Virus record (IMG/VR): IMGVR_UViG_3300031963_000328
Location: 1 to 42,098 of that record
Reading direction: 5' to 3' (one strand)
DNA length: 42,098 nt
DNA from: a virus
The number at the start of each line of letters is the position of its first letter. Within the stretch, counting starts at the first letter, position 1. The notes beneath the pieces were generated by a model, which had not been told where the DNA came from, did not search any database, and worked only from the letters and a program-made list of their open reading frames with translations. Positions 3,438-40,606 of this stretch are shown here, in pieces. The position numbers were made by a program, and so were the translations under genes.

Positions 3438-6400
3438 GTGGCAGTTTTAACAATTAACCGAGGGCTTGTAACAAGTCCAAATGAACTTGCAAGACCTGAT
3501 GGAGCTGCAGAAATTCTAGATAACTGTGTCATTGATTTTGACAACGTTGTTCAGAGTAGACGAGGCTTCGGAGAGTTTGGAAATAAGACAGATGACGATA
3601 CTGTTGTAAAACAGCTATTAACATATAAAGGGCGTATTCTTCGCCACTTCTCAAATAAACTAAGCTTTGACTCTGATGGTAATGGAACCTTTCTAAACTT
3701 CTCTGGAGTATATTCCGAGCTTGTGGAAAGGCTTAGACTTAAGTATTTCGAGCTTAACTCAAACCTTTATTTCACAACAAGTGAAGGTATTAAAAAAATC
3801 TCGGCAACTTCTGCCAGCGATTTTACAACATCAGCTGGTTTTATCACTAATGCTGGGGCAGTTAAAGCTTTAAGCTTAGAAGGTGTTATTACTCCTTCCG
3901 AGTCCGGGTTTCTTCCAGCACAATCAAAAGTAGGGTATAAAGTTCTTTGGGCTAAGAAAGATGCTAATGGTAATATAAACCGTGGCGTTCCAAGTTCCAG
4001 ATATGTCCTAACAAATACATCTTCTGACATTAATGTTGGAGAAGAATTTAACATTGCTGTAACTACAGCTGGTGCAGGAATTCACAGACAGTTCGATTCT
4101 ACAACTTCCGTTACGGGAGCTGTCATTACAATTACCAACCATGGTTTTACGGCTGGAACTAAGGTTAGATTTCATGGAGTTATTGCTCCAGAATTAAATA
4201 AAAATACAGATTATTTTGTTGTCAATGTTACAACTTCTGATGTTTTTGGTGTATCACTTACATCAGGCGGAACCGCAATTACTCTAACTGATGTGGCTGG
4301 TACTGGTTTTGTATATAGTGGTATAAACAATAGCCATTTCTTTACATTCGACTCTCCGACAAATAAGTTTGCTTGCTGGTTTAACATCTCCGGCACAGAC
4401 GTTGCTCCAACAGATACAAGCCTTGTTGGTAGGAATTTACAAGAAGTTGAGATTTATAAAATATCCAACAAGTCAAAAGAAAATTACATGGCAAAGATTG
4501 CCGAGACAATTTCTCTTGTGTCTGATGTTAAAGTTGACACCACTTCAACAGAGGTTACTGTTACAAATATTGACGGCGGGAACGTACTTGATGCAGCTGC
4601 TGGTAATATTGATGTGACACTTCTAACTGTCTCAAAAGTATTTGATGGACAAACAGCTACAGGAATTCCAGCTAACGCATCATTGACATTCACTGTTCCT
4701 TCAGAAATCATCACCAACAACGACAGAGCATATTTCTATGAGATCTATAGAACAGCTTTCATTACCGTTGCCACAGGCTTAACGCTTAACGATATTGACC
4801 CCGGCGAAGAGTTTCAAAAGATTGCAGAATACCCAGTGGTTGAAGACTCTTCTCCAATTCCAGCTAGTATTACTTTTAGTGACATTGTTCCAGAAACCTT
4901 TAGACAAGGTGGGTTATTCCTCTATACAAATCCCGTAACTGGCGAAGGCTCGCTTCAGTCAAATGAAGCTCCTCCAGTGGCACATGATGTTGCCGTATTT
5001 AAGGGTTCAGCTTTCTATGCTAATACAAAGGAAAGGCATAGAGTACAGTTTAACTTGTTGTCTGTAAGTCAATTTACTTCTGGTGTTTCTAAATTCTACA
5101 TTGCTAATTCTCAGATTGTACGAACTTATACCTTCGTAGGAAGAAATGAGATTGTTGACTTTACAGCTAAGAAAAAAGCAGAAACAACTGGCGGATCTTA
5201 TTTTGATGTAATGTCAGCTCAAGATAAAGTTAAATATAGAGTTTGGTTTGACAAAGGTACAGTTAGCTTTAGCTTTACAAATACTGCAGTAAATGCAACA
5301 ACAGAAGAAATCACTGTAACCGCACACGGCTTAGCTACCAATGATAAAATTACCCTTTCTGGAGCAAGCTTGCCTGCTGGTTTAACAGCTGGTACGTACT
5401 ATGCCATAAGAGTTAGCGATAACGTCTTTAAACTATCTTTAACAGTGAATGGAACAGCAATTGATCTAAGTTCTGCCGTTGGCACAGCTAATGTATTGCA
5501 TAATTCTGAGGCTCCAAGTAACGACTCCTCTATTCTTTTAAGAGTTGCTTTAGAGGGTTATCCCAATACCATCCAAGGCTCTGTTGAAGCATTCCTTAGT
5601 GCATTCTTTGACATCCCAGACTTCGAAGCAACCGATCTTGGTTCTGGAGTAATAAGACTTACTTACACTGACAATGGTAATGCCAGCGTTATAACTCAAT
5701 CAGTCGCTCCTGTAAGCTGGACAATTCCTATTGTATTCCAAGAAGGGCTTGGGGAAAATGCCGCAGCAAATGAAGTGTTGTTATCTGGGTTAGCTTCTCA
5801 GGGACTTTCTGTAGAAGATACCGCAAGATCACTTGAGAGAGTTATTAACAAAGATGCTTCTTCTCCAGTTACAGCTTTCTACTTGTCTGGTCCAAATGAT
5901 CTGCCGGGTATCATTGTTTTGGAAGCTAAGAGCTTAGTTGATGACCCAGTGTTTCTTGGATTCAGCCATGCAACAGCAACAGCTGTATTTGAACCATCTA
6001 TTCCGGTTGTTAAGACCATCCTTAATGTTACAGCTCCGGGCATCATTAACACTACAGCTACTCATGAACTACTTCCCAATCAAGATGTTTACGTGTTTAT
6101 TAAGCCAACAATTTCAGCCACTATTTTGTCTGGAAGAAAGACCGTTGCTACAACTCCTACAACATCTTCCCTAACAATCTCTGGATTTACCTCTACAACA
6201 ACTTATACAACGTTTGACCAAGCAATTATCTTTCCAGCTGATGTTGTATCAGATAACTCTTCAAATAGAAACAGAGTTTACTTTTCAAAGATTAACCAGC
6301 CAGAGGCAGTACCTCTAGTTAACTATATCGACATTGGACCAAAAGACAAAGCTATTCAACGCATTATGGCATTGAGAGATAGTCTCGTTGTTCTCAAAGA

Positions 6401-7754
6401 AGATGGGGTTTACATTATATCAGGCTCTGCAGCTCCAAATTTCAGCGTGAGACTGTCTGATTCCTCTGCTCTAACCTTTGCTCCAGATACAGCCACAAAC
6501 CTCAATAACTTAATTTATGTGCTTACTAGCCAAGGTGTGGTAACGGTGTCAGAGACTGGAGTGGGAATTATCTCCAGAAATATTGAAAATAAGATACAGG
6601 AAATTGCTAACGCTAAGTATAACTATAAGCTTATGAGTTGGGGAATGGCTTCTGAATCTGACAGATGTTATATCATCTGGCTTCCAGAAAAGACAACAGA
6701 TACTTATGCCACTCAAGCTTTTAGATATAACACATTTACAAGAGCGTGGACTCGCTGGACAAAACCTGCCAATTGCGGAGTGGTAAATCCTAACGACGAC
6801 AAGATCTATTTGGGAGATTCTTCAAGTAGACCTTATGTTCTCAAGGAAAGAAAGAATCTAGAAAGACAAGATCATTCAGATAGAGAGATCATTAGAAGCT
6901 TAAGTGCTGGTGCGATTAATGGGACAACTGCCATTATTTCTTCTGTAACTGAACTTGAAGCAGGTGATGTTATGGTACAAACCCAGTACGTCGACATTAA
7001 TAAATATAACCGTCTTCTAAAGAAACTTGACAGAGATGTTCTTAATTCCAATAACTACTACTCAACTCTGAAAGCGGTAACAGGGGATAGCTTAGCAGCT
7101 AAGCTTACTCAACTTGTTGCAAAGCTTCATTCAGATGGAATTATGGTTCCAGCAAGTTCAAACTCTAACTCTCTTATAGAGCTTAGGGATGACTATAACG
7201 ACATAGTAAACTACCTTAATAGTCCAGCTGCAGGAACTGGGTTTAAAGATTATAAGCTTGCTACAGACCTTCTAACTTATGAAGTGCTTGTCACAGCTAT
7301 TAATCCAAGATTTAACACTGTTACTTTGAAGTTCATGAACAAGTTTATTCAAGGAAACGTAAGTTTCTTTAAAGCTATTAAATGTCTTGTGCAGTACGCT
7401 CCTCAGCATTTTGGTAAACCAGAAATGACTAAGCAAGTGTCTGAAGGAACTTTCATCTTTGACCAGAATAATTTCTGGGGAGGCATTGTTGCTTACTCCT
7501 CGGATAGATCTTATGACTTTGCTTCTGTAGAGTTCTTTGGAAGAGGTCCGGGATATTGGGACGGATACAGCTGGGCAGATGTAACTTATGGCGGAGAGGG
7601 TAATGAAGTTCCAGTTAGAACGCTTATCCCAAGAGACAAATCTCGCTGTCGCTACCTGCATGTGCAGTTTAGACATCTCAATGCTAGAGAAGAGTGGAAA
7701 CTCATTGGAGTTTCTTTAGAGCCTCGTGAGGTTTCTTCTAGAGGCTATAGGTAA
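3438..7754 (+). CDS. Large tail protein, nozzle/hub-like
   Basis: 1438 aa from a GTG start with AGAAGGTGG upstream, four bases after the preceding stop. The N-terminus (INRGLVTSPNELARPDGAAE, then DNCVIDFDNVVQSRRG) and residues about 940-1120 (RVYFSKINQPEAVPLVNYID, then MALRDSLVVLKEDGVYIISG, then TSQGVVTVSETGVGIISRNI) have the repeated beta-propeller look of podovirus tail nozzle or stabilisation proteins. Two FCCH-like beta modules sit at about 225-290 (NHGFTAGTKVRFHGV) and 620-685 (AHGLATNDKITLSGA). The C-terminus ends in a beta domain with W and Y clusters (WGGIVAYSSDRSYDF). It would bind the adaptor and guide DNA exit. The family assignment is by pattern, not by a search. Confidence 0.6.
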   Translation: MAVLTINRGLVTSPNELARPDGAAEILDNCVIDFDNVVQSRRGFGEFGNKTDDDTVVKQLLTYKGRILRHFSNKLSFDSDGNGTFLNFSGVYSELVERLRLKYFELNSNLYFTTSEGIKKISATSASDFTTSAGFITNAGAVKALSLEGVITPSESGFLPAQSKVGYKVLWAKKDANGNINRGVPSSRYVLTNTSSDINVGEEFNIAVTTAGAGIHRQFDSTTSVTGAVITITNHGFTAGTKVRFHGVIAPELNKNTDYFVVNVTTSDVFGVSLTSGGTAITLTDVAGTGFVYSGINNSHFFTFDSPTNKFACWFNISGTDVAPTDTSLVGRNLQEVEIYKISNKSKENYMAKIAETISLVSDVKVDTTSTEVTVTNIDGGNVLDAAAGNIDVTLLTVSKVFDGQTATGIPANASLTFTVPSEIITNNDRAYFYEIYRTAFITVATGLTLNDIDPGEEFQKIAEYPVVEDSSPIPASITFSDIVPETFRQGGLFLYTNPVTGEGSLQSNEAPPVAHDVAVFKGSAFYANTKERHRVQFNLLSVSQFTSGVSKFYIANSQIVRTYTFVGRNEIVDFTAKKKAETTGGSYFDVMSAQDKVKYRVWFDKGTVSFSFTNTAVNATTEEITVTAHGLATNDKITLSGASLPAGLTAGTYYAIRVSDNVFKLSLTVNGTAIDLSSAVGTANVLHNSEAPSNDSSILLRVALEGYPNTIQGSVEAFLSAFFDIPDFEATDLGSGVIRLTYTDNGNASVITQSVAPVSWTIPIVFQEGLGENAAANEVLLSGLASQGLSVEDTARSLERVINKDASSPVTAFYLSGPNDLPGIIVLEAKSLVDDPVFLGFSHATATAVFEPSIPVVKTILNVTAPGIINTTATHELLPNQDVYVFIKPTISATILSGRKTVATTPTTSSLTISGFTSTTTYTTFDQAIIFPADVVSDNSSNRNRVYFSKINQPEAVPLVNYIDIGPKDKAIQRIMALRDSLVVLKEDGVYIISGSAAPNFSVRLSDSSALTFAPDTATNLNNLIYVLTSQGVVTVSETGVGIISRNIENKIQEIANAKYNYKLMSWGMASESDRCYIIWLPEKTTDTYATQAFRYNTFTRAWTRWTKPANCGVVNPNDDKIYLGDSSSRPYVLKERKNLERQDHSDREIIRSLSAGAINGTTAIISSVTELEAGDVMVQTQYVDINKYNRLLKKLDRDVLNSNNYYSTLKAVTGDSLAAKLTQLVAKLHSDGIMVPASSNSNSLIELRDDYNDIVNYLNSPAAGTGFKDYKLATDLLTYEVLVTAINPRFNTVTLKFMNKFIQGNVSFFKAIKCLVQYAPQHFGKPEMTKQVSEGTFIFDQNNFWGGIVAYSSDRSYDFASVEFFGRGPGYWDGYSWADVTYGGEGNEVPVRTLIPRDKSRCRYLHVQFRHLNAREEWKLIGVSLEPREVSSRGYR

Positions 7755-7757
7755 AAC

Positions 7758-8165
7758 ATGCCAAAGTTAAGTGATATTCGAAGAATTATTCCAGAAGACT
7801 TCAGCCAAGAAGCTCAAGAAGTTATTGAAGGCGTTGCTGGTTCTTATAATGAATTTGCTGATGAAATTTACCAAGTGGTTAATGGTCAGCTTGATTTCGA
7901 AAACCTAGCTCGTGCTAAGGTTAACATAGACATCAGCTTTGACTCCACAGGTAAACCTGTTGGAAATGCCAGTATCGGAACAAACTTAGGGTTTGTTTCA
8001 ATGATTCATATTGGGAAGATTCAAAACATTACCAATGCTTCAAGAATTTCTCAGGTTCCATATCTTGACTGGAGCTTTCAAGGCAATGGCACTGTTAAGA
8101 TTAATTATGGGGTAGGATTTACTGCTGGAATAAAATATAGGTTAACGCTGGAATTAATTCAGTAA
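7758..8165 (+). CDS. Small tail-associated protein, unknown
   Basis: 135 aa, starting four bases after the nozzle-like gene with AGGT upstream. The N-terminal 50 residues are helical (DIRRIIPEDFSQEAQEVIEG); the rest is beta-like with Gly (VSMIHIGKIQNIT, FQGNGTVKINYGVGFTAG). It could be a small tail or fibre adaptor. It is the last rightward gene before the structured non-coding block, and its reading frame looks complete, so that block does not obviously split it. Confidence 0.55.
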   Translation: MPKLSDIRRIIPEDFSQEAQEVIEGVAGSYNEFADEIYQVVNGQLDFENLARAKVNIDISFDSTGKPVGNASIGTNLGFVSMIHIGKIQNITNASRISQVPYLDWSFQGNGTVKINYGVGFTAGIKYRLTLELIQ

Positions 8166-8170
8166 TGCTC

Positions 8171-8457
8171 GGCTTTTTTATAAGCCTCACATTTGGATAT
8201 AGTAAGGGCTTAGAAAGCATCTATTTCTAGGCAAAAGTAAGATGCATGACTTTTGCTTAAGTTGGTTTACGGATTCCAACCCGTCTTATCAACACGATGC
8301 TTTTCAGCTACTTCCTAAGTTGGTCTTAGCGAAGATTTTGCTACGTGTGGCTGGTTAATTACCCCAGCTCTCTGCGTACCCATGCTTCTCCTACCCAGTA
8401 ACTTAATACCCTCCTGAGAGAAGACGAGGAATGTTGATAAAAAGATAGTCCAAATAG
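8171..8457. ncRNA. Candidate structured RNA region (strand undecided)
   Basis: The 339 bases between the stop at 8165 and the end of the leftward endonuclease gene at 8505 hold no plausible gene but are dense in complementary segments: 8208-8216 with 8224-8232 (9 pairs, one wobble), 8231-8238 with 8249-8256 (8 perfect), 8261-8265 with 8276-8280, 8311-8319 with 8325-8334 (9 pairs, one bulge), 8350-8354 with 8364-8368, and 8385-8390 with 8418-8423. A long-range 9-bp perfect helix, 8286-8294 with 8432-8440, encloses the last three hairpins. That gives a closed multibranch layout. AAGATAGTCC at 8442-8451 resembles the S element of group I introns, but I could not find its P7 partner. Either strand could be the RNA. 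It could be an intron remnant, a new RNA element or an endonuclease-associated RNA. Confidence 0.4.
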
Positions 8458-8504
8458 CCCCTCATTTCATGGCGTATGGAGTAACCTTTATATTAGTATA
8501 TTTA

Positions 8505-9047
8505 TTATTTTAAAAATTGTAAAGTTTTATTAAAGGATAATTCACATTTATTACAAACTAAAAATGCTTTTTCTCTATAAAAGATAGTACTATGACCTTT
8601 ACATTTTTTACATATTGGACAAGTCTTAGCTTCTTTTGATGGGGTGTTTAGCAGCTTAGTTTTTTTATTTTTTAGTTTCTTTTTTATAAGTTCTATAGCA
8701 GTATATAAGTCTTCGTAATTATTATGTTTTACTCTGAAAACTGTTATACCCAAAGACCTTAAGTCGTGATCTTTTTGTGCATCTTTTATTTTTACTCTAG
8801 CTAAGTTATGGATAGACCCGTCTACTTCTATAGCTAAGTTATTTAAAAATAAATCAACTATGTAGGAGTCTCCGACGCAATGATTTAGTTTAATATTACT
8901 ACTCGGGATATCAATACCAGCTAGGTGTAATTCATACTGGAACCATACTTCACTTGCCCATCTATGAATATTCAACTGCTTAGCTCTATTTAAGATCCAT
9001 TTTCTTTTTTCTTTGTTTATTTTATGTAGTTTTTTAATCTTTATCAT
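8505..9047 (-). CDS. Vsr/DUF559-like homing endonuclease
   Basis: 180 aa, the only leftward gene inside the rightward virion arm. The core shows a PD-(D/E)XK/Vsr-type pattern: E33 in an SEVWF helix, D65 in YIVDLFL, E74-x-D76 in LAIEVDGSIH with H80, then KDHDLRSLGITVFRVKHN at about 92-109. This is the layout of DUF559 and of intron-associated EDxHD endonucleases. A C-terminal zinc ribbon follows (C143, C146, C149, C165, C168). The N-terminal Lys-rich part likely binds DNA. GGAG lies 3 bases before the ATG, and a promoter lies directly upstream (9062-9090). It probably nicks or cuts an allele lacking this block and so spreads it. The specific target is unknown. Confidence 0.75.
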   Translation of the reverse strand: MIKIKKLHKINKEKRKWILNRAKQLNIHRWASEVWFQYELHLAGIDIPSSNIKLNHCVGDSYIVDLFLNNLAIEVDGSIHNLARVKIKDAQKDHDLRSLGITVFRVKHNNYEDLYTAIELIKKKLKNKKTKLLNTPSKEAKTCPICKKCKGHSTIFYREKAFLVCNKCELSFNKTLQFLK

Positions 9048-9059
9048 AGTCTCCGTTCA

Positions 9060-9087
9060 CAAATATAGCATAACTTTGTTATATTTG
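9060..9087. promoter_or_regulatory. Operator-like dyad over the endonuclease promoter
   Basis: Eight-base perfect arms (CAAATATA and TATATTTG on the plus strand, outermost bases 9060 and 9087) flank a 12-base centre. A second, inner dyad ATAAC-TTT-GTTAT lies inside it. The dyad covers the -10 element and spacer of the endonuclease promoter and touches its -35 element, so a dimeric repressor bound here would block transcription. No repressor gene was identified; the function is inferred from position and symmetry. Confidence 0.4.
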
Positions 9088-9090
9088 CAA
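9062..9090 (-). promoter_or_regulatory. Sigma-70-type promoter of the endonuclease gene
   Basis: Read leftward: TTGCAA (9090-9085), a 17-base spacer ending ATGC, then TATATT (9067-9062). The TGC before the -10 makes an extended -10. The predicted transcript start near 9055 leaves a leader of only about 8 bases, including the GGAG ribosome binding site of the gene starting at 9047. Confidence 0.55.
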
Positions 9091-9113
9091 TAGTTATAAG
9101 TAATTGATATTGT
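9085..9113 (+). promoter_or_regulatory. Weak divergent promoter candidate for the 9168 operon
   Basis: The hexamer TTGCAA at 9085-9090 is its own reverse complement, so it can also serve rightward. A 17-base spacer leads to TATTGT at 9108-9113 (four of six consensus bases, no TG extension). It would restart rightward transcription after the inserted block. The match is poor and may be chance in AT-rich DNA. Confidence 0.2.
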
Positions 9114-9167
9114 GTTGAATATAAAAAATGCCATTTAACACCCTTATATTACAGAGGAAAAATAGAC

Positions 9168-11549
9168 ATGGCAATTGTAAAAGATGAAGAAGAACAAAAG
9201 GGTCAAGGAACAAGTCAAGCACTTGGCCAGGGTATGACTCAACCTAATCAGCAAACTTCTCAGCCAGAACAACCACAAGAGGGAAGTTCCGCTCCTGCTA
9301 CGATAGGGGGGTCAGCTCCCCAAGCACCTGCTCAAACAGCGCCTGCAGCTCCCAAACAACAAAAAGCTGGAACGGGCACGTTTGCTAATCTTAAAAGCTA
9401 CCTACAAGCAGCGCAGGGTGGAGGTCAACAAAGAGTTGCTCAAGCCGCAACGCAGCAAGTACAAAGACTCGGAGCTGGGGCTCAAAAAGGTCTACAACAA
9501 GCTCAGCAAGCGTTTGGTAAGCGTATGGAATCCGGCTCTTTGAAGGGCATGGAAACGGCGTCACAAGAAGCCAAGGACATTATTGGTGCTGCTAGAAGTA
9601 CAACCTATCAAGCTCCACAACAACCTACTCCAACTGAGCCACAAAGTTATTTTGATAGGACGTTTAATTTAAACGAAGCAGGATTAGCTAAGTTAGGAGA
9701 TAAGGCTTCTTCATTTCAAGAAGAACTTAATGCTATAAATAGAAGAATGTTGCCTATGGATCGCGGTCCCGGTTCAGCAAATGAAGCAGCATCTAAGCAA
9801 CAACAAAAAGACAGAGAAGCGTTGTATGAAAAGTATGGGTTAAATGCGGTTCCTGCCGCACTTCAACCAACAACTCCAGCTCCCCAGCCTCAACAACAAT
9901 ACTTTACTCCAGAACAAACACAGCGTTTCGCTGAAATTATCAATGCTCAATATCAAGGTCCGGCTTCTCTTCAGCAAGCAGGACTTTATGAACAAGCTGC
10001 ACAGAAAGCTAGAACGGCTCAGGAAGCTGCTCAGAAGACTCAGACAGCATTGGGTAGAGAGCAGTTACTAAGAGATGTTTTTGGTAGAACCAGAGACTAC
10101 GGAAGAGGCGTGTCAAAGCTTGACGCTCTTCTTTTAAATACATCTCAACAAGGTGTTAAACAATTGCAAGAACAAGCTCAACCTGCAGCACAAGCTCAGG
10201 AAGCTTTACAAGCAGCTCAGAATGTGTCAGCTAATGAAGCAGCACAAAGACAAGCCGCAATCGAAGGAATTCGTTCAGGAGCAAGACAAGAGTTTACAGG
10301 AGCGAGAGCTGCAGAAGAGCAAGCCACTGAAAAGCGTATTGATGATTTAATTAAAACTCCAGTACTAGATGAAAAAGGTCAACCTCAATTAAAAGCAGAC
10401 GGAACTCCCATGACTGAGTGGGATAGACTTCCAGAGTTTTTTAGACAATCACTAGCTTCAAAAACAAGCCCTCAATGGCAACTATCCGCAGAAGAAGCTG
10501 CTATTTTGGGAGTCGGAGCTGGCGAAGGACTCTATAATATTCGTCCAGAAGATATTAGGACAACACAAGCAGATCGTGCTAGACTAATTACTAGGAATGA
10601 ACTTGCCAGACAACAAGCTTTAGCTCAACTGGCGGAGAGGGATATTTCTAGAGAATTACAGAAAGATTTAGCTTATACCGATATGGAAAAAGCAGGTACT
10701 CAAGATTTAGCATCTTCTCTAGATGTGGAATCTTTTAGAAGATTATTAGATGAGTCTCAAGCTGGATTTAAAACTGCAGCTCAGGAAGCAGATATAACTG
10801 GAACTGGTAAGAAAAAAGTTTCCAGAGGTAACTGGGCAGGTAAAAAAACAAAAACGTATCATGCATCTGTTGGTGGGAATGTAGCTGACATGCTTCGTGA
10901 AGCTGGTTATGATGTTGGTGCAGAAGGTGAAGGAACAAGATCCTTATTAACAGACAGAGACTTACTAAATAGATATTTAGGAGCCACCTCAACTAATAGA
11001 GATGTTGAAGCTAATATCGGAGGATCTGCACTAGAAGGCACGGCAGCAGGAGCTGGTACAGGTGCTAGTATTGGAGCTATGACAGGAACGGGCCCCGTAG
11101 GAGCTGGTGTAGGAGCTGCAGTCGGAGGTATGATTGGAGGAATGGCAGGAGCTAATACTTTAGATGCAACTCAATATTATACAGATTTAGCTAAAGAAAT
11201 GGAAGACAAATTAGGAATTAAAGGTCTTGGTGCTGCGGGACAAGCAGTTCAAGATGTTAGACAAGGAGCAGGAAACGTATACGGCGAGACATATGGAAAA
11301 GCGTTAGATTTACTTGGACTCGGAGATGTATCTAAAGGAATCAAAGGTATGATTAGCGGGATCGACACTGGGGCGATGAAAGCTTATGGAGATGCCAAAG
11401 CAAAACAAGCAGCAATTAAAGATTTACAAAAGAAATATGCCCAATTTCTGCAAGGACAGGGATTTGAAAATAGAGCTAATATTGTTGACACAGAAGCCAC
11501 CAGAGCTAGAGCTGCTGCATTACAAAATTTATTGCGTAGGCAAGGATAA
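9168..11549 (+). CDS. Large Gln/Ala-rich internal-virion-like protein with glycine zipper
   Basis: 793 aa. GAGG lies 10 bases before the ATG. The first 150 residues are low-complexity Gln/Pro/Ala, the middle is predicted helix/coiled coil (about 240-510, many AAQ repeats), and residues about 620-660 hold a Gly/Ala zipper (GAGTGASIGAMTGTG, then GAGVGAAVGGMIGGMAGA) that could insert in a membrane. This composition, together with the neighbours, fits podovirus ejection (internal core) proteins that form a channel for DNA entry. No lytic transglycosylase motif is visible. The stop overlaps the next ATG by one base. Confidence 0.5.
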   Translation: MAIVKDEEEQKGQGTSQALGQGMTQPNQQTSQPEQPQEGSSAPATIGGSAPQAPAQTAPAAPKQQKAGTGTFANLKSYLQAAQGGGQQRVAQAATQQVQRLGAGAQKGLQQAQQAFGKRMESGSLKGMETASQEAKDIIGAARSTTYQAPQQPTPTEPQSYFDRTFNLNEAGLAKLGDKASSFQEELNAINRRMLPMDRGPGSANEAASKQQQKDREALYEKYGLNAVPAALQPTTPAPQPQQQYFTPEQTQRFAEIINAQYQGPASLQQAGLYEQAAQKARTAQEAAQKTQTALGREQLLRDVFGRTRDYGRGVSKLDALLLNTSQQGVKQLQEQAQPAAQAQEALQAAQNVSANEAAQRQAAIEGIRSGARQEFTGARAAEEQATEKRIDDLIKTPVLDEKGQPQLKADGTPMTEWDRLPEFFRQSLASKTSPQWQLSAEEAAILGVGAGEGLYNIRPEDIRTTQADRARLITRNELARQQALAQLAERDISRELQKDLAYTDMEKAGTQDLASSLDVESFRRLLDESQAGFKTAAQEADITGTGKKKVSRGNWAGKKTKTYHASVGGNVADMLREAGYDVGAEGEGTRSLLTDRDLLNRYLGATSTNRDVEANIGGSALEGTAAGAGTGASIGAMTGTGPVGAGVGAAVGGMIGGMAGANTLDATQYYTDLAKEMEDKLGIKGLGAAGQAVQDVRQGAGNVYGETYGKALDLLGLGDVSKGIKGMISGIDTGAMKAYGDAKAKQAAIKDLQKKYAQFLQGQGFENRANIVDTEATRARAAALQNLLRRQG

Positions 11550-14049: not shown

Positions 14050-16092
14050 ATGGCAGAAGAAATACTTCCGGCTTTTGAAGACACAGAAGAAATTCCATCT
14101 ACGAATCAATCAGAGACACTTCCATCTTTTGAAGATACAGAAGAATTGCCCGCTATTCCCTCTCAAAAATCAATTGTTCCATCCGAAATAAAAGGAACGT
14201 TAATTGGGTCTACAATTGGAGCCGCACCGGGAGCTGCAGCTGAAGTACTAGGTACTATAACAGAAAAGGTAGCAGAGGCAAGATCTCCATATACTCCAGA
14301 GCAGTTACAAATGCTGTCAGAAAATTATCAAGCTTTAAAAAATATTGAGCCAGCTGAAACAATGAAAAAGGTTGGTGAAAAATTTTCTGAGCAAAATAGA
14401 ATTATAAACGAACTAGAAAAAGAAGCATATTCACAATTATCAGAACCTATTGCTAGACAAGAATATCAAAAAGCTGTTATAAAATCCTCTCTTCCATTTA
14501 CAAGAGAAGTGGATGAAACAACTCCTGAATTTTTAAAAGCTAAGGAAGAGTTAACTCCAAAATTACAATCTTTTAATCCAATCGAATTACAAGAATCGCA
14601 ACAGCTGGAGAAATTTGCTAATAAAAAAGCTTCTGAGATTATTAATAATAAAAGAGCTGCTAGCTTCGGAACTATACCGGAAGAGCAATTATTACAAGAA
14701 TACAATGACTTGAAGCAACAGATTAAACAAACCAAAGAGGGTTTTACTTTTAAACCTGATTTAGAAAAGGCTTTAAAGGATTATACTAAACAAATATCTG
14801 AATCTAAGTCTTTGGAAGAGCAAGGAAAAAAAGCTGCTATTGCAAAGTTTGAATCTCCGTTAGCTAAAACCTTTCCTGAATTAAAAGGAAGGCTATATTC
14901 TTCGGCATATGCTGGAGTAGAACAAGATGTTGCTAATATTATAGACAAATATAAAGCAGGAGAAAGGCTGAAGGGAGAAGACGCATATAAACTCGTTCGA
15001 GATATAAGACAAGCCGTATTTAATAAAGACGGACAGTTAAAGCTTGGAGAAGATGCGGCAAAAGCTGCACAAAGAGCAATTAGAGATTTAGTTGGTGAAA
15101 AAAATCCTGAAGCCTCTCAACTCTTCAACGAGATGTCTCAAAAAATATCAGATTTAAAAAAGCTAGAAAAGACAGGATATTTAAAAAGAGACAGAACGGT
15201 TTCAAAAGAATCGCCCGAATTTGTTCAGTTTGGAGAAAAGCAACAAAAGAAAATAATTCAAGACATTGCTCCTAATTTATATAAGTCTGGAATTGATGTG
15301 TCAGAAGATGTTGCGTCTAGACTATCTGAACTTAAGAAATCTCTTCCAGAAAATTTATATAAAGAATTAGAGCTTGCTGTTTTAAAAGTAGCAATGGATG
15401 ATCCTAAAAAAGCAGCTTCGCTATCTAATTTCGATTTAGCATTAGCAACCGTTGCTCCACAGTTTGCAGGTAGCAAATACTTAGGAAAAGTAGTAAGTTC
15501 TCCAAAAGGTTCTTTGCAAGCCTTTAGACTTGGAAAAGGACTTCAGAAGATCGCAAAACCACTAGCTGGGGTTGGTGCTGTAGCTGGTGGAGTTTTAGGC
15601 GGTCCGTTAGGAGCTTTTGCTGGAGAGGTGGCACAAGAAGCTATAGACGTAGAACCGTCTGGAGCAACCCCTGACATGCCAGAATACTGGCTTGAACGTG
15701 GAGTTCGTGAGCCAGAAGAGCAACTACAAAAAGCTAGGCTTGCTTCTTTTAAACAAGGCTTACCAGAAGCTCCAAGCGAAATTCCTTCCCGGTTTGAAGC
15801 TCCAGAAGTTAGACAACGTAAAGAACAGGTTTTGGCTGCAAAAAAAGCTGGTGCTTTAGCCCCAACTTACGTAGAGGCTCCTCTTAAGCAAGTGTTAAAA
15901 GCTGATAGCCCTGCTGAGATTTCATCTATTGCTCAGTCTATGCAAACTATGCCAGATAAAGCCTCGCAGGAATATAGCCGAGTTTTAAGCCAAATTGTTG
16001 ATGCTCCAGCTTCTCAGAAAGAAGCGGTGCTCTTTGGATTAAACCAACAACCAGCCTTCAGAGAATTATTGAAAAAAATAAAAGGTGAGTAG
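14050..16092 (+). CDS. Large helical virion protein with N-terminal repeat and Gly/Ala-rich membrane-like segment
   Basis: 680 aa. The N-terminus carries two copies of a short acidic motif, LPAFEDTEEIPS and LPSFEDTEELPA. Next comes a short Gly/Ala segment (about 50-65), a long helical middle (about 80-480), and a second glycine-rich hydrophobic stretch at about 505-530 (AGVGAVAGGVLGGPLGAFAG). The C-terminal 150 residues are helical. It resembles the largest ejection proteins of podoviruses in position and make-up. It begins 3 bases after the preceding stop, with weak ribosome-binding sequence, so it is likely translationally coupled. Confidence 0.5.
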   Translation: MAEEILPAFEDTEEIPSTNQSETLPSFEDTEELPAIPSQKSIVPSEIKGTLIGSTIGAAPGAAAEVLGTITEKVAEARSPYTPEQLQMLSENYQALKNIEPAETMKKVGEKFSEQNRIINELEKEAYSQLSEPIARQEYQKAVIKSSLPFTREVDETTPEFLKAKEELTPKLQSFNPIELQESQQLEKFANKKASEIINNKRAASFGTIPEEQLLQEYNDLKQQIKQTKEGFTFKPDLEKALKDYTKQISESKSLEEQGKKAAIAKFESPLAKTFPELKGRLYSSAYAGVEQDVANIIDKYKAGERLKGEDAYKLVRDIRQAVFNKDGQLKLGEDAAKAAQRAIRDLVGEKNPEASQLFNEMSQKISDLKKLEKTGYLKRDRTVSKESPEFVQFGEKQQKKIIQDIAPNLYKSGIDVSEDVASRLSELKKSLPENLYKELELAVLKVAMDDPKKAASLSNFDLALATVAPQFAGSKYLGKVVSSPKGSLQAFRLGKGLQKIAKPLAGVGAVAGGVLGGPLGAFAGEVAQEAIDVEPSGATPDMPEYWLERGVREPEEQLQKARLASFKQGLPEAPSEIPSRFEAPEVRQRKEQVLAAKKAGALAPTYVEAPLKQVLKADSPAEISSIAQSMQTMPDKASQEYSRVLSQIVDAPASQKEAVLFGLNQQPAFRELLKKIKGE

Positions 16093-25141: not shown

Positions 25142-25764
25142 AGTTTCACCAATGGATGATCTTCTGGAAACTCAGTTTGCATTATCTTCTTACGCTCTTC
25201 TCCGCCATACTTAAGCCAGTGAATTCCATTCTTAGGCTTAGCGAACTTTGCGTCAAGCAAGGCAATGGCTTTGTAGAAGAAATAACTCAATCTTCGTGTC
25301 TCTCCAAAACACTCTAACAGAAAGGCTCGGTCTTGTAAAGGGACAGAAAAAGCAAAGCGATAAATCTGGGACAAGCTGTTCTGCCAGAAGTAATTACGAT
25401 GCTTGCCTCTAAGCTCCAGAGCTTGTTTTATAAGTATTTTTAAGCTAAAGGGTGGGATAGGGTAGGGGCTGAAGCTCCAGCCGTTTAAATGGATAGGTTT
25501 AAGTAAATCTAGATAAGCTAGGGCGATTATTTCATCTCTGCTAATAGGAGGCAACTCCTTATTAGGACTTCTAATTAAATAAAAATAACCTTCTGGAGTT
25601 GCTTTATTACACAACTCAAAACACTCACGTAATTTATCTTTATTTACAGGTAGTCCAAGCTTTACAGCATAGGCAGTGTAGATGCCTCCATTGTTAGAAC
25701 TTGGATTAATTCCATCTGTAGGCTTGTCATGATAACGAGTCCATTGATCTTGATAAGTTTTCAT
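25138..25764 (-). CDS. Conserved phage protein, unknown
   Basis: 208 aa from the ATG at 25764, which overlaps the HNH stop as ATGA; an in-frame ATG at 25776 is less likely. It is helical and aromatic-rich (YFYLIRSPNKELPPISRDEI, LQDRAFLLECFGETRRLSYF, KNGIHWLKYGGEERKKIM). Its length and style are familiar from uncultured phage genomes, but no role is known to me. Confidence 0.55.
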   Translation of the reverse strand: MKTYQDQWTRYHDKPTDGINPSSNNGGIYTAYAVKLGLPVNKDKLRECFELCNKATPEGYFYLIRSPNKELPPISRDEIIALAYLDLLKPIHLNGWSFSPYPIPPFSLKILIKQALELRGKHRNYFWQNSLSQIYRFAFSVPLQDRAFLLECFGETRRLSYFFYKAIALLDAKFAKPKNGIHWLKYGGEERKKIMQTEFPEDHPLVKL

Positions 25765-26309
25765 ATATGTCTCCAAGTTTGTCGTCTCACAATATAACCA
25801 ACAACACTATGATGAATCCCAAACATTTCACCGATATCCTTATATCGATATTTTTTTGTGGCATGTAACTCTCTTATTTTAAGAACCACTTCTTCAGTAA
25901 CAACAGCCCTGTGGTTATCTTCGCCCAAGTATCTCTTAATATATCTATTATTAAAAGCGTGCTGTGTATTCTGCTTAGGAGAAACCCACTCTAGATTTTC
26001 TACCGAGTTATTAGTTTTGTCCAAATCTTTATGATTAACTTCCTTTAAATTAGTCTCATTTATAATAAACGTGAGCGCGACCAACCTGTGGATAAGTTTT
26101 GCTGATTTTTTTCCATTCTTATTTAAGATTATTCTACCATACTTATTTCCGGCATACACAACTTTAAGCTGCTTTCCTTTCTTCATTAAAACTTTACCAT
26201 TACGGTGTTGGACTGCTCTATCTAAAGACTTAACTCTGCCAAGATTACTAACTTGATAAATTCCTTCATAGCCTTCAATATCCCTCCATTCTTCTACTTC
26301 ATTATTCAT
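25761..26309 (-). CDS. NUMOD4-HNH homing endonuclease with C-terminal HTH
   Basis: 182 aa from the ATG at 26309 with GGAG upstream. Residues 4-40 are NUMOD4 (EEWRDIEGYEGIYQVSNLGR). Residues about 70-112 are the HNH core (IHRLVALTF, EVNHKDLDKTNNSVENLEWV). Residues about 135-178 are a helix-turn-helix (YKDIGEMFGIHHSVVGYI) that would set DNA specificity. It lies directly after the dUTPase gene and overlaps the downstream gene as ATGA. It is closest in layout to the enzyme at 32478. Confidence 0.88.
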   Translation of the reverse strand: MNNEVEEWRDIEGYEGIYQVSNLGRVKSLDRAVQHRNGKVLMKKGKQLKVVYAGNKYGRIILNKNGKKSAKLIHRLVALTFIINETNLKEVNHKDLDKTNNSVENLEWVSPKQNTQHAFNNRYIKRYLGEDNHRAVVTEEVVLKIRELHATKKYRYKDIGEMFGIHHSVVGYIVRRQTWRHI

Positions 26310-26310
26310 C

Positions 26311-26736
26311 CTAAACTCCAGAACTTCCAAATCCACCAGAACCTCTTTTTGTTTCTGAAAGATCTGATACGATATTGATTGTTGGGGTTATAAAAGGAAC
26401 TAATATTAATTGTCCCACTCTATCTCCAACTCTGTACATTTTGCTTGGGTTATAATTATATGTTGTTTTAAATCGTAGCTTCACTTCTCCTCGATATCCG
26501 CTGTCAATAACTCCAACAGAATTACAAAGAGTTAAGTCATATTTAGAAATGCTTGATCGAGGAAACAAAAGTCCAACACAACCATCGGGTATTTCAAAAG
26601 CTAAGTTTGTGCCATACTCCACATAGTCATCAGTAAAAGAAATACTTGTAGCAGTCAGATCTAATCCAGCATCTCCTAAGTTTTGAAAACTTGGAACAGT
26701 TGTTGAAATAGCTTTATCAATAATTTTAATGTTCAT
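26311..26736 (-). CDS. dut: dUTP diphosphatase
   Basis: 141 aa from the ATG at 26736 (AGGA upstream); longer in-frame starts would cover the small gene before it. All five trimeric-dUTPase motifs are present: GDAGLDL, PRSSISK, NSVGVIDSGYRGEV, GDRVGQLIL and the C-terminal RGSGGFGSSG. It hydrolyses dUTP to dUMP and PPi, keeping uracil out of phage DNA and supplying dUMP. With the ribonucleotide reductase and MazG-like protein it forms the nucleotide-pool set. Confidence 0.95.
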   Translation of the reverse strand: MNIKIIDKAISTTVPSFQNLGDAGLDLTATSISFTDDYVEYGTNLAFEIPDGCVGLLFPRSSISKYDLTLCNSVGVIDSGYRGEVKLRFKTTYNYNPSKMYRVGDRVGQLILVPFITPTINIVSDLSETKRGSGGFGSSGV

Positions 26737-27916: not shown

Positions 27917-28309
27917 CTAAATATCATCCGCAAAAAATGTATTGTAAGTATTTCCTAAATTTTTGGAATGAGGTGCTAATCTTGTATAAACTTCACCATC
28001 ATATGAGTAAAACCAATGAACTACCAAAGGATCTACATAAAATCTAAGATCTTTATTAAAACGCACTAGATATTCTTTAAATTCTTGCATTGTTTTATTG
28101 CTTTTTAATCTATTACAGTCCCAGCAACAAGGAATACAATTTCCTGAAATATAGCCTTTAGTATTGTCAATTCTATCAATACCGACCTCATCTTTCTTAA
28201 CTCTACAATAATAACAAGGTCTTTTTTCTAAGATTGCAAAGATTTGTTCTGGAATATTAAATTTCATTTTATTTTTTTGCGCTCTAGATTTGTATCTTGA
28301 AAATTTCAC
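27917..28309 (-). CDS. HNH-type endonuclease (zinc-ribbon class) after the polymerase gene
   Basis: 130 aa from a GTG start that overlaps the polymerase stop as GTGA. It carries PCYYCRVKK (first zinc pair), GIDRIDNTKGYISGN (the catalytic region, with D-R in place of the usual D-H) and IPCCWDCNRLKSNKT (second zinc pair and the final Asn/Lys). The same D-R-[IV]-D-N ... C-C-W-x-C-N pattern is in the enzyme at 38413. It is probably a free-standing homing endonuclease that protects or spreads the polymerase locus. Confidence 0.75.
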   Translation of the reverse strand: MKFSRYKSRAQKNKMKFNIPEQIFAILEKRPCYYCRVKKDEVGIDRIDNTKGYISGNCIPCCWDCNRLKSNKTMQEFKEYLVRFNKDLRFYVDPLVVHWFYSYDGEVYTRLAPHSKNLGNTYNTFFADDI

Positions 28310-32254: not shown

Positions 32255-32478
32255 AGCAATTCCTTTTCTAAAGAAGATAATGGTTCTACTTGTATTTCAG
32301 CTACTTCGTTAGCCCATGGTGGTATGATAGTAGGGAATATAAGTTTATACCCATAATCAGTGTAGAAATGAAATTCAACAATATCATCTGAACGAAACTC
32401 ATGAGAAGAGTAATAAAGCGGGTGCTTTGTTTTTTTAGACTTATACCAAGCTCCTACAACAAGATCTCTAACAAACAT
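32251..32478 (-). CDS. Tagged SH3-like small protein preceding the primase
   Basis: 75 aa; its ATG shares a base with the HNH stop upstream (TAATG). It starts MFVRDLVVGAWYKSKK, continues with FRSDDIVEFHFYTDYGYKLI and ends VEPLSSLEKELL. The last codons (GAAAAGGAATTGCT) carry the ribosome binding site of the primase, whose ATG overlaps the TGA. The terminal 30 bases are almost the same as those ending the gene at 31213, pointing to recent duplication or exchange. Confidence 0.6.
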   Translation of the reverse strand: MFVRDLVVGAWYKSKKTKHPLYYSSHEFRSDDIVEFHFYTDYGYKLIFPTIIPPWANEVAEIQVEPLSSLEKELL

Positions 32479-33047
32479 TATAAGTCTCCATTAAATCGCC
32501 ACTCATACTGTGGTTTAATGTGAATCCATTGTTTTCCTTGACGGATAGCTTGGATTGTTCCTATTTTTACGCCAGTCTTATTTGAAATTTCACTTTGCTT
32601 ATAGCCTAGAAATATCATATTAACAACCTCCTGAATCTGCTCTTCTGAGTATAGATTATTTCCATGATTAATTCCAGTGTTGTTTATAAGTCCAGTTTTA
32701 AAACCATGCTGCATGTTTTCTAGACGAGTAGCCCATTCTAAATTGGAGGAAGCATTATTTTTCCTATCTCCATCTATGTGATTTACATCAGTTTTGTTAT
32801 CTGGGTTTGGGATAAAAGCTTTAGCAACTATTCTGTGTAATAACCTAGACTCTCGTTTAGATTCTTTATAGAGGTGAACATATGGTAGCTTGTACTTACC
32901 ACAAAAGTTTATCGATAGTATTTTACTTGGATAGTTATAAACCCTCCCATCGCTATATGTAATTTTTCTAGCAATAGAACGAACTTTACCTAGATTAGAT
33001 ACTTCGTATAAACCTTCGTAATCATTAATAGCTACCCACCTTTCCAT
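32478..33047 (-). CDS. NUMOD4-HNH homing endonuclease with C-terminal HTH
   Basis: 189 aa. NUMOD4 at residues 1-36 (ERWVAINDYEGLYEVSNLGK), HNH at about 70-112 (LLHRIVAKAFIPNPDN, DVNHIDGDRKNNASSNLEWA), helix-turn-helix at about 133-172 (GYKQSEISNKTGVKIGTIQA). It sits between helicase and primase genes and shares single-base TAATG overlaps with both neighbours. GGAGAG at the end of the helicase gene is its ribosome binding site. It likely targets the helicase or primase region of relatives lacking it. Confidence 0.88.
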   Translation of the reverse strand: MERWVAINDYEGLYEVSNLGKVRSIARKITYSDGRVYNYPSKILSINFCGKYKLPYVHLYKESKRESRLLHRIVAKAFIPNPDNKTDVNHIDGDRKNNASSNLEWATRLENMQHGFKTGLINNTGINHGNNLYSEEQIQEVVNMIFLGYKQSEISNKTGVKIGTIQAIRQGKQWIHIKPQYEWRFNGDL

Positions 33048-38412: not shown

Positions 38413-39006
38413 TTACTTATTATCTTCCAGCTCAAGAACTTTTGTCAAGTCAATTTCTTTTTTATCTCTAAAAAATTTAGTCATTTCGAACCACTCGTCA
38501 AAAGAGTACCTGTTACCCTTTGAATTGTTACAACGCCAACAACAGACAACTAAATTGGAAAAAATATAGCCCTTATCATTATCAACCCTATCTAAATTAT
38601 ATTTTGATCCATTTTTTGTAAGATTATGTTTTGTCCATTTAATAGACTCAAAACAATAATGACATTTATTCTGATTTGTAAAAATTTTAAATTCTTCAAA
38701 TGTTAGACTAATTGGTTTATTTTTTTCTTTGCAGGTTTTTAAAAGACCATTAAATAAAGCAAGGTATGGCTCTTTTGCGGTTGTATGTTTTAACCTATCA
38801 ATTCCGTTTATTTTTTTAAGATCAGAACACTTCTTACAATAGCCTGACCACTTGTGATAACTATACACATCCCTTATTGTTATATTAAGACACCCACTCG
38901 TTAAACAGCTTGCTTCATAGTAACGAAGTAGCCTTTTACGACTACCTCGTTCTTTTCTAACTTCTTTTATAATTTGATTCTTACAAGCCACAAACTCCAC
39001 CCACAC
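38413..39006 (-). CDS. HNH-type endonuclease overlapping the ribonucleotide reductase end
   Basis: Up to 197 aa. The frame opens within the reductase gene's last 26 bases at GTG; starts at 39006 or GTG 38991 (GGAG 3 bases upstream) are both possible and no ATG fits. An N-terminal Cys-rich segment (ASCLTSGCLN, then GYCKKCSDL) is followed by KCHYCFESI, then YNLDRVDNDKGYIFSN and VVCCWRCNNSKGNR. This is the same D-R-[IV]-D-N class as the enzyme at 27917. Its place straight after the reductase gene suggests homing at that locus. Confidence 0.75.
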   Translation of the reverse strand: MWVEFVACKNQIIKEVRKERGSRKRLLRYYEASCLTSGCLNITIRDVYSYHKWSGYCKKCSDLKKINGIDRLKHTTAKEPYLALFNGLLKTCKEKNKPISLTFEEFKIFTNQNKCHYCFESIKWTKHNLTKNGSKYNLDRVDNDKGYIFSNLVVCCWRCNNSKGNRYSFDEWFEMTKFFRDKKEIDLTKVLELEDNK

Positions 39007-40606
39007 ACTCAGTCATTTGTTCTTCAAAAACAACACCTTCATTAGCTAAAGCTTCTTCTAAGCTTACTCTAGTTAATGGCTGACCGCCTCTACACCCATC
39101 CGGGTACATAGTAAAGCCTCGTAGTCTTTTAGCATACTTTAGCAGTGTTTTTGAATTTTTATCTAACGTCTGTTCGTTATTTTCATCAGACCCCCAACTA
39201 GCCACGTTACACGTAGAACTAATAGCCATATCAACATAGTTTTGAACGTCAGCTTGAAACTTAACTCTTGTCTTAAAATCCAAATCATAAGAGTCTTGGA
39301 TATCTTCCATTTTTACCCCCTGCTCCAGAAGTCTTTTTACAGAACCATCAACAACATACTGGTACATCCACTTACCTTCTTTAAAGTATCTTCTTTTATA
39401 TGCTTTACAAAACAAAGGTTCAATACCCGTAGTAGTTTCTGCCATAATACCAATTGTACCAGTTGGGGCAATAGCTCGCACCCCTTTTGGAACTGCTACA
39501 TTTAACAGCTTAGCTCCAATAAAAGCGGCTGAATCAGACTCGTCTTCATAGACTTTAAGCCAACTATGAAGCTCTGGTGTAACTTCGTACTTCATCCCTC
39601 TGGACATAAGCCATTCGTGAATTCCTCCAAGACCAAGACCAATTCTATTGTTTTTAATACCAACTTCCTTGATCTTTTCATTCGGAACATCTGAGTAAAT
39701 TCCACCACAAAGAAGAAATAATATACTAGCTTTTGTTATTTTCTTAAGTTCTTTTTTATCTTTAATTCTATTCATCCAAATAGTTCCCAAATTACACTTA
39801 TCTGAGTCATCTTCCGAAACTACTTCACAACAGGCATTTCTCAAAGTTTCATTATCTTTTCTAAAGTTAAAACTAAATCCCGGCTCTGCTGTAGAAAAAG
39901 CTTGCTTACAATTCAACTCATAAACGGCTTTCGCATGAGAATGGAGCGGGTGTTTCTCATCTTCAATTGCAATAAAAAATTCTGTATCATAGTTAACCGA
40001 AATGTTAGTTAACTCCATTGGAAGAATAAAGTTGAAATCTTTCTCTTTCTGTGCTCTAAGTTCTGGGCTGTGATCTTTAAGTTTTAGAAATTTAAAAACA
40101 TCACCATGCTTCCAGTTTAGAGAAGCATAAATAGCACTCCTTCTTTGACCGCCCTGCATAATGTTTCTTCCAGCCTCATTCACCATGTTCATCAAAGCAA
40201 TTGGACCGGTGCTAAAGCCGCCCGTACGTTTAACCAAAGCTCCTTCTGGGCGTAAAGCTGAGTAGTCAACTCCAATTCCTCCACCTGTCATTAAAGCAGA
40301 TGTTACTTTATACATAAGTTCAGACCAACCTTCACGACTGTCCTCTGCTCTAAACAAAAAACAATTATTGACTTGATGAAAAGGTCGTCCAGCTGAGTAT
40401 AAATATCTTCCACCCGGAATAAACTTTCTTTCCAAAATAGCTTTATAAATAGTATCTTTATCCTCTGGACTCAATAGTTGACCACATACCGCATCTACAA
40501 CTCTTTTAGCTGTATCTGACCAAGTTTCTTGACCATTTAAAGAGTACTTCTGCAGAAAAATATCTTGGGCAAATTTATTTGAAAAAACATCGAACTTATT
40601 AGTCAT
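38981..40606 (-). CDS. nrdJ: Class II (adenosylcobalamin-dependent) ribonucleotide reductase
   Basis: 541 aa, AAGGAAG before the ATG. The reductase landmarks are FIPGGRYLYSAG (about 63-73), C82 in NNCFLF, N257-A-C259-C260-E261 (thiyl Cys and Glu of the N-x-C-x-E motif), C271 in KCNLG (the disulfide partner of C82), IAPTGTIG (about 376), MYPDGCRGGQPLT, and the C-terminal shuttle pair C534-VGGV-C539. It has no ATP cone and no class III glycyl site; no NrdB partner is near. It makes dNTPs using the host's cobalamin. The C-terminal tail ends CVGGVCGL. It has its own promoter. Confidence 0.9.
   Translation of the reverse strand: MTNKFDVFSNKFAQDIFLQKYSLNGQETWSDTAKRVVDAVCGQLLSPEDKDTIYKAILERKFIPGGRYLYSAGRPFHQVNNCFLFRAEDSREGWSELMYKVTSALMTGGGIGVDYSALRPEGALVKRTGGFSTGPIALMNMVNEAGRNIMQGGQRRSAIYASLNWKHGDVFKFLKLKDHSPELRAQKEKDFNFILPMELTNISVNYDTEFFIAIEDEKHPLHSHAKAVYELNCKQAFSTAEPGFSFNFRKDNETLRNACCEVVSEDDSDKCNLGTIWMNRIKDKKELKKITKASILFLLCGGIYSDVPNEKIKEVGIKNNRIGLGLGGIHEWLMSRGMKYEVTPELHSWLKVYEDESDSAAFIGAKLLNVAVPKGVRAIAPTGTIGIMAETTTGIEPLFCKAYKRRYFKEGKWMYQYVVDGSVKRLLEQGVKMEDIQDSYDLDFKTRVKFQADVQNYVDMAISSTCNVASWGSDENNEQTLDKNSKTLLKYAKRLRGFTMYPDGCRGGQPLTRVSLEEALANEGVVFEEQMTECVGGVCGL

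Follow-up and report, generated by a model that had tools for sequence, protein, structure and literature searches.

In phages, free-standing homing endonucleases are found between conserved genes, where they cut the alleles that lack them and co-convert the flanks (PMC2988022; PMC6083498). PMC2988022 lists a reference on how the T4 tRNA-gene region is inherited when phages co-infect, which offers a precedent for enzymes of this kind beside RNA genes. Here we describe a locus in which an endonuclease gene lies beside a structured RNA. The window, the whole stretch of DNA that was analysed, consists of 42,098 bases from an uncultured virus (IMG/VR), and its first 16.4 kb or so are occupied by a rightward virion operon.

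Within this operon, no open reading frame of 70 aa or more is present in the 339 bases between 8165 and 8505, which are followed by a leftward gene for a DUF559 nuclease of 180 aa (8505-9047, minus strand). We conclude that this block is two things, a resident structured RNA locus (8166 to about 8492) and a separate, optional endonuclease gene. To its left is a 135-aa virion-operon gene (7758-8165, plus strand), which shows 51-93% amino acid identity over its full length in 10 related phages, and to its right a 793-aa Q/A-rich virion-operon gene (9168-11549, plus strand), homologues of which come after the RNA in the relatives. Both flanking genes are intact and no gene is interrupted, and the original prediction was right that this is not a plain intron. 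The promoter-like motif ahead of the right-hand gene (TTAACACCCTTATATTACAGAGG, 9135-9157, plus strand) is found across the clade, and in most relatives it precedes the same gene.

The long conserved motif TTAACACCCTTATATTACAGAGG was also seen ahead of virion genes in other members of the group (L010 1201, L011 2708, L014 1692, L018 2386). A search for PF00940 (T7-like RNA polymerase), the candidate reader of the TTAACACCC motif, gave no match, and the control was likewise silent. No tRNA or tmRNA was found in the window.

The junction in related phages and the type B RNA

The original prediction had proposed a comparison of this junction with related phages, and we carried it out with IMG/VR phages recruited by searches with the neighbouring proteins. 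We observed that an RNA-like block followed the 135-aa gene in 13 of the 15 related records, while the two most distant relatives (L167 and L168) had just 108-113 nt at this place. Ten relatives carried a block of one kind, type B, about 275-335 bases long (L013, L019, L011, L010, L014, L016, L015, L020, L134 and, in a shorter form, L153). The block of L009 was 81% identical to that of the window (type A) and had no endonuclease beside it. The block of L012 (type C, 14467-14740) was shorter still, had no evident similarity to the other blocks, and lay behind an exact TTGACA-17-TATAAT promoter on the minus strand. The DUF559 endonuclease was present in none of the relatives (it was absent from 12 related records), the insertion being unique to the window. 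As the relatives carry an RNA-like block without the endonuclease, the RNA block is the resident here and the endonuclease the guest. No DNA relatives of type A, type B or the distant copy L179 were found in named phages. Isolated 15- to 20-mers in other contigs, two bacterial contigs included, were set aside as chance matches that cover a loop alone.

The type B core comprises about 110 nt inside about 300 nt. In this core a helix, P1, closes three hairpins, P2, P3 and P4 (GACCGUGAAAUAGAG...AGCGGAARGCC), and the structure covaries strongly; conservation is highest in GACCGUGAAAUAG, in the CCG/CGG pairs and in GCGGAARGCC. When nine type B sequences were aligned on the minus strand (alignment A4), a 28-pair structure had 98.8% of its cells paired. 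Double changes were seen at 11 of the 28 pairs, in 24 cells as against 6.9 in shuffles (0/500 as high), and the pairing collapsed after a one-column slide. With copies from elsewhere added (alignment A6, 13 sequences, which leans towards the structure because it was fitted to it), 96.7% of the cells were paired and 19 of the 28 pairs had double changes, in 66 cells as against 15.5 in shuffles (0/500); any slide led to a sharp drop. We also worked out the pairing by hand from the raw sequences of L205, L179 and the junction copies. The block had been predicted to be structured, and a covariance search with relatives had been suggested. Compensatory changes were indeed found in the homologous blocks, with strong success for type B and modest success for type A. 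The Rfam 15 covariance search gave no match for type B, even at E<=1.

A covariance model made from the junction copies found two distant copies outside its training, one at 4420 in G013 (L205, a second copy in the L153 phage) and one at 8380 in G017 (L179, a different phage). Extended models found further copies in G011 (8330), G003 (257) and G007 (79520). No description of the type B RNA was found in the full-text literature with a few queries of a limited library. The RNA family and the RNA/endonuclease arrangement appear to be new, while phage structured RNAs and free-standing homing endonucleases are known kinds.

Two further observations concern the relatives. In L260 (4300-4480, G014), we spotted by eye CAACACCCTTATAGTG and then AAGCGTGAAAAGAGAGC, likely a diverged RNA copy beyond the reach of the models. 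The non-virion regions L249, L250, L251, L259 and L260 contain many TTGGCAY-N5-TTGC sites, which correspond to the sigma54 (-24/-12) consensus. They often occur as inverted pairs. One stretch of 5.8 kb has 10 sites and another of 6.0 kb has 9, with about 0 expected, and the window and the virion regions of L013 and L009 have none. The sites suggest either that some phage genes are driven by sigma54 or that a palindromic operator is repeated here.

The window's own RNA and the endonuclease cassette

The window's type A locus extends from 8166 to 8492, with its 5' end at about 8492 and an uncertain 3' end. As a single sequence, the block folded slightly better than shuffles (z -1.34 on the minus strand, z -2.44 on the plus strand). 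This is weak, and therefore the case for structure rests on the relatives; for type A the structure was based on two sequences, those of the window and L009. A 9-bp long-range helix had been predicted to close a multibranch loop. This helix, P1, pairs exactly on the minus strand (UUAUCAACA, 8432-8440, and UGUUGAUAA, 8286-8294) and is kept in L009 with compensatory changes, as CUACUGACA/UGUUAGUAG, with three double changes and one G.U pair.

The hairpins within P1 (8312-8378, minus strand) are UACG (8375-8378)/CGUA (8342-8345), which becomes UGCG/CGCA in L009, and AGCUGG/CCAGC (8350-8369) and CUAAG/CUUAG (8312-8333), which are the same in L009. Further hairpins on this strand (8217-8280) are GUUGG/CCAAC (8261-8280), found as GCUGA/UCAGC in L009, and GCAUCU/AGAUGC (8217-8245). 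The latter is GCAUCU/AGAUGU in L009 and requires a G.U pair, which is possible on the minus strand only. When the window-derived fold was tested in L009, the minus strand kept 13 of 21 varying pairs (9 of them double), and the plus strand 14 of 31 (4 double); the reverse test, with the L009-derived fold in the window, did not separate the strands. Judged from these two sequences, type A is probably a structured RNA of the minus strand, and its strand is probably that of the enzyme.

The type B models gave no match to the window's RNA (R1 and R3 with all filters off, R2 with default filters), so the family evidence reaches type A by position and not by homology. It is quite possible, at a little under even chances, that type A is a true but highly diverged type B allele and not an unrelated replacement RNA. 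The two types share the same genomic junction, the same outline of a long P1 closing three hairpins and, on direct reading of the sequences, the short string CC[G/A]UGAAAU(A)GAGG. However, this string is not in an equivalent helix context, and full-model searches between the types gave no above-background score. A two-codon mini-ORF in the common string (GUG AAA UAG / AUG AAA UGA) was considered and dropped, as it was without a ribosome-binding site.

The leftward gene had been read as a Vsr/DUF559-type endonuclease, and the Pfam profile bears out the DUF559 part. Its product matches DUF559 (PF04480) above the cut-off (26.1 bits versus 20.6, 8.5e-06, residues 60-124), and a C-terminal zinc ribbon (A2L_zn_ribbon) is near threshold (22.5 bits versus 22.9). 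The AlphaFold2 single-sequence model had a pLDDT of 42, and a sequence search against Vsr structures gave no match. No relatives of the endonuclease were found in IMG/VR by pattern and tblastn, and named phages gave weak matches alone. The gene is optional, lies between conserved genes and is absent from relatives; by analogy with phage enzymes of this habit, it is best read as a free-standing homing endonuclease.

Elsewhere in the window, we noted two NUMOD4 + HNH_3 endonuclease genes (25761-26336 and 32478-33047, minus strand), which are of the usual free-standing homing type. Two more HNH-like ORFs (27917-28309 and 38413-39006) were recognized by reading, with no Pfam match. The gene for a B12-type ribonucleotide reductase (NrdJ-like, 541 aa, 38981-40606, minus strand) overlaps an HNH-like ORF at its 3' end.

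The ends of the cassette could be placed by comparison with L013. The window matches L013 at 86% identity from 4341 to 8166; from exactly 9047 the identity is 93% for about 150 bases. The cassette 8166-9046, made up of the type A RNA and the endonuclease, stands with sharp ends where L013 has its type B RNA. On the right it ends at the endonuclease start codon, where the identity to L013 resumes. The putative Shine-Dalgarno sequence of the endonuclease, GGAG (9051-9054, minus strand), lies in GGAGACTATG in the window, compared with GGAGACTAACATCTCC in L013. The type B RNA of L013 begins GGAGACUAACAUCUCC, and there GGAGAC forms the 5' side of a hairpin; in the window, GGAGAC is followed by UAUG. 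As the identity resumes at the start codon, the enzyme would take over the RNA's promoter and its first GGAG.

We consider it likely that the locus is a resident leftward RNA gene with a free-standing DUF559 endonuclease between its promoter and the RNA, and that the enzyme arrived by intronless homing. The region 8166-8492 would then be a resident phage gene for a structured non-coding RNA, probably leftward, which the phages of this group retain between two virion genes. The endonuclease gene, which points the same way as the RNA, would have been inserted after the RNA's promoter and ahead of the RNA, and would be expressed from that promoter, with the first GGAG of the RNA as its ribosome-binding site. 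In a co-infection, the enzyme would cut the homologous locus in a phage that lacks the enzyme, and the ensuing repair would copy the enzyme together with the adjoining RNA allele. Such co-copying would explain why the type A and enzyme cassette stands exactly at the type B site of L013. As L009 has a type A RNA without the enzyme, the exchange of A and B need not have been caused by the enzyme.

Strand, promoters and rival explanations

The comparison of strands favours transcription of the RNA leftward, antisense to the virion operon, from predicted sigma70-like promoters with an extended -10. The type B block of L010 folded with z -3.70 on the minus strand (0/100 shuffles as good) versus z -1.31 on the plus strand, and RNAalifold gave -114 versus -103 for type B. 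Among the type B variants there are also G.U pairs; these are valid on the minus strand only, since the plus strand would have A.C in their place. At the matching place ahead of the RNA, most loci showed a site of sigma70 type, usually with an extended -10, and in L179 as in L012 it was an exact TTGACA-17-TATAAT. The summed promoter score was 155 versus a null of 120 (shuffles, 0/500), which is by itself not decisive for the strand because the opposite strand of the promoter stretch, at 139, was likewise above the null. The promoter of L009 itself was poor, and no clear terminator was found for the RNA.

The endonuclease had been predicted to have its own promoter, and such a site was recovered at 9062-9090 on the minus strand, a sigma70-like TTGCAA-17-TATATT with TGC ahead that supplies the extended -10 TG. 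This promoter is homologous to the RNA promoter of the relatives, and in this stretch L013 is 92.7% identical to the window from 9047 on. The copies in other contexts lie downstream of promoter-like sequences, and their reading direction is that of the GACCGUGAAAUAG motif. Those in G003, G007, G011 and G013 are preceded by a sequence resembling the late-gene motif of the same phage; the fraction of random windows as good was 0.062, 0.007, 0.012 and 0.016, respectively, and the likeness is suggestive only.

The block could also be a structured element of the virion operon that is read rightward, such as a leader or a processing or termination region, and not an antisense RNA. Its place inside a rightward operon would fit this, as would the slightly better fold of the window on the plus strand and the promoter-like sites above the null on the adjacent plus strand. 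However, the type B folds and RNAalifold values, the G.U pairs that only the minus strand permits and the direction of the copies in other contexts all argue for the antisense RNA, and we regard a rightward element as improbable. Far less probable still is a decayed group I intron, which had been proposed because AAGATAGTCC resembles an S element. This resemblance did not hold up, as Rfam gave no match on either strand, and AAGATAGTCC lies on the plus strand whereas the RNA evidence points to the minus strand. In the window Rfam had no match, with nothing meaningful in 8100-9200 at E<=5 on both strands, and the group I catalytic core (P3-P8, P7) was not found by the Rfam covariance model at the same threshold on either strand. 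The flanking genes are intact, no gene is interrupted, and at this junction the relatives already hold a different, conserved and covarying RNA.

It had also been suggested that the block is an intergenic mobile RNA/endonuclease element, or an RNA that works with the enzyme. In that case the RNA and the endonuclease would move as a single unit of an intergenic intron-like or HEARO/OMEGA-like kind, in which the RNA guides the enzyme or the enzyme depends on the RNA. The two are indeed adjacent, in the same orientation, and differ together from the L013-like background; in G017, an HNH-like ORF (by reading, with no Pfam match) lies about 650 nt after the RNA core. Against both suggestions, no relative's RNA locus has the DUF559 enzyme, the RNA being without it in all relatives. 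The blocks of the relatives had no match in Rfam at gathering and loose E-values, including the intron, HEARO/OMEGA RNA, GOLLD and ROOL families. DUF559/Vsr proteins are not known to be RNA-guided, which we also count against such a unit. We consider it very unlikely.

Possible roles and comparison with known systems

For the resident RNA gene, the host-type promoter, the position outside reading frames, the conserved fold and the extra copies suggest a stable early RNA acting in trans. We tentatively propose that it may be a stable early riboregulator or a decoy on a host or phage protein, possibly against host defence. A packaging or structural role (pRNA-like) seems unlikely. A broader and rather speculative reading is that the new phage RNA family would be a host-takeover or anti-defence RNA under diversifying selection, whose rival alleles homing endonucleases would spread by whole-locus swaps. 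As part of this reading, and just as speculatively, a genome would have at most two copies, one antisense in the virion operon with a host-type promoter and the other elsewhere, often with a phage-type promoter-like motif.

Type B combines strong and specific covariation, a fixed antisense place in the virion operon and extra copies in several genomes, and it is without an Rfam match. Should it be expressed, uncultured phages would have in it a new structured RNA whose early role can be tested. In addition, the window would be a clear case of an endonuclease taking over the promoter of an RNA gene, and the exchanged unit would be the RNA allele.

The arrangement resembles the intronless homing of the Seg and Mob enzymes of T-even phages (PMC2988022), in that an optional endonuclease lies between conserved genes and relatives lack the enzyme. 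In those phages the flanks are co-converted, and the sharp-ended cassette of the window would fit such a co-transfer. The arrangement differs in that those enzymes are GIY-YIG or HNH, whereas the present one is DUF559 (EDxHD/PD-(D/E)XK type). Here the neighbour is an undescribed structured RNA, the enzyme lies between the promoter and the RNA, and cleavage is predicted. Collaborative homing of F-CphI and the psbA intron in cyanophages (PMC6083498) likewise has a free-standing endonuclease with an RNA element as its neighbour, and this element may shield the home allele. There the element is a self-splicing intron, whereas the RNA described here is resident and not an intron. GOLLD and ROOL (PMC12286853) are similar in being phage-encoded structured non-coding RNAs of unknown function, but they differ in both sequence and structure from the RNA described here, which has no Rfam match. 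They are also located by tRNA islands, whereas the present RNA is situated within a virion operon, on the strand opposite to the virion genes.
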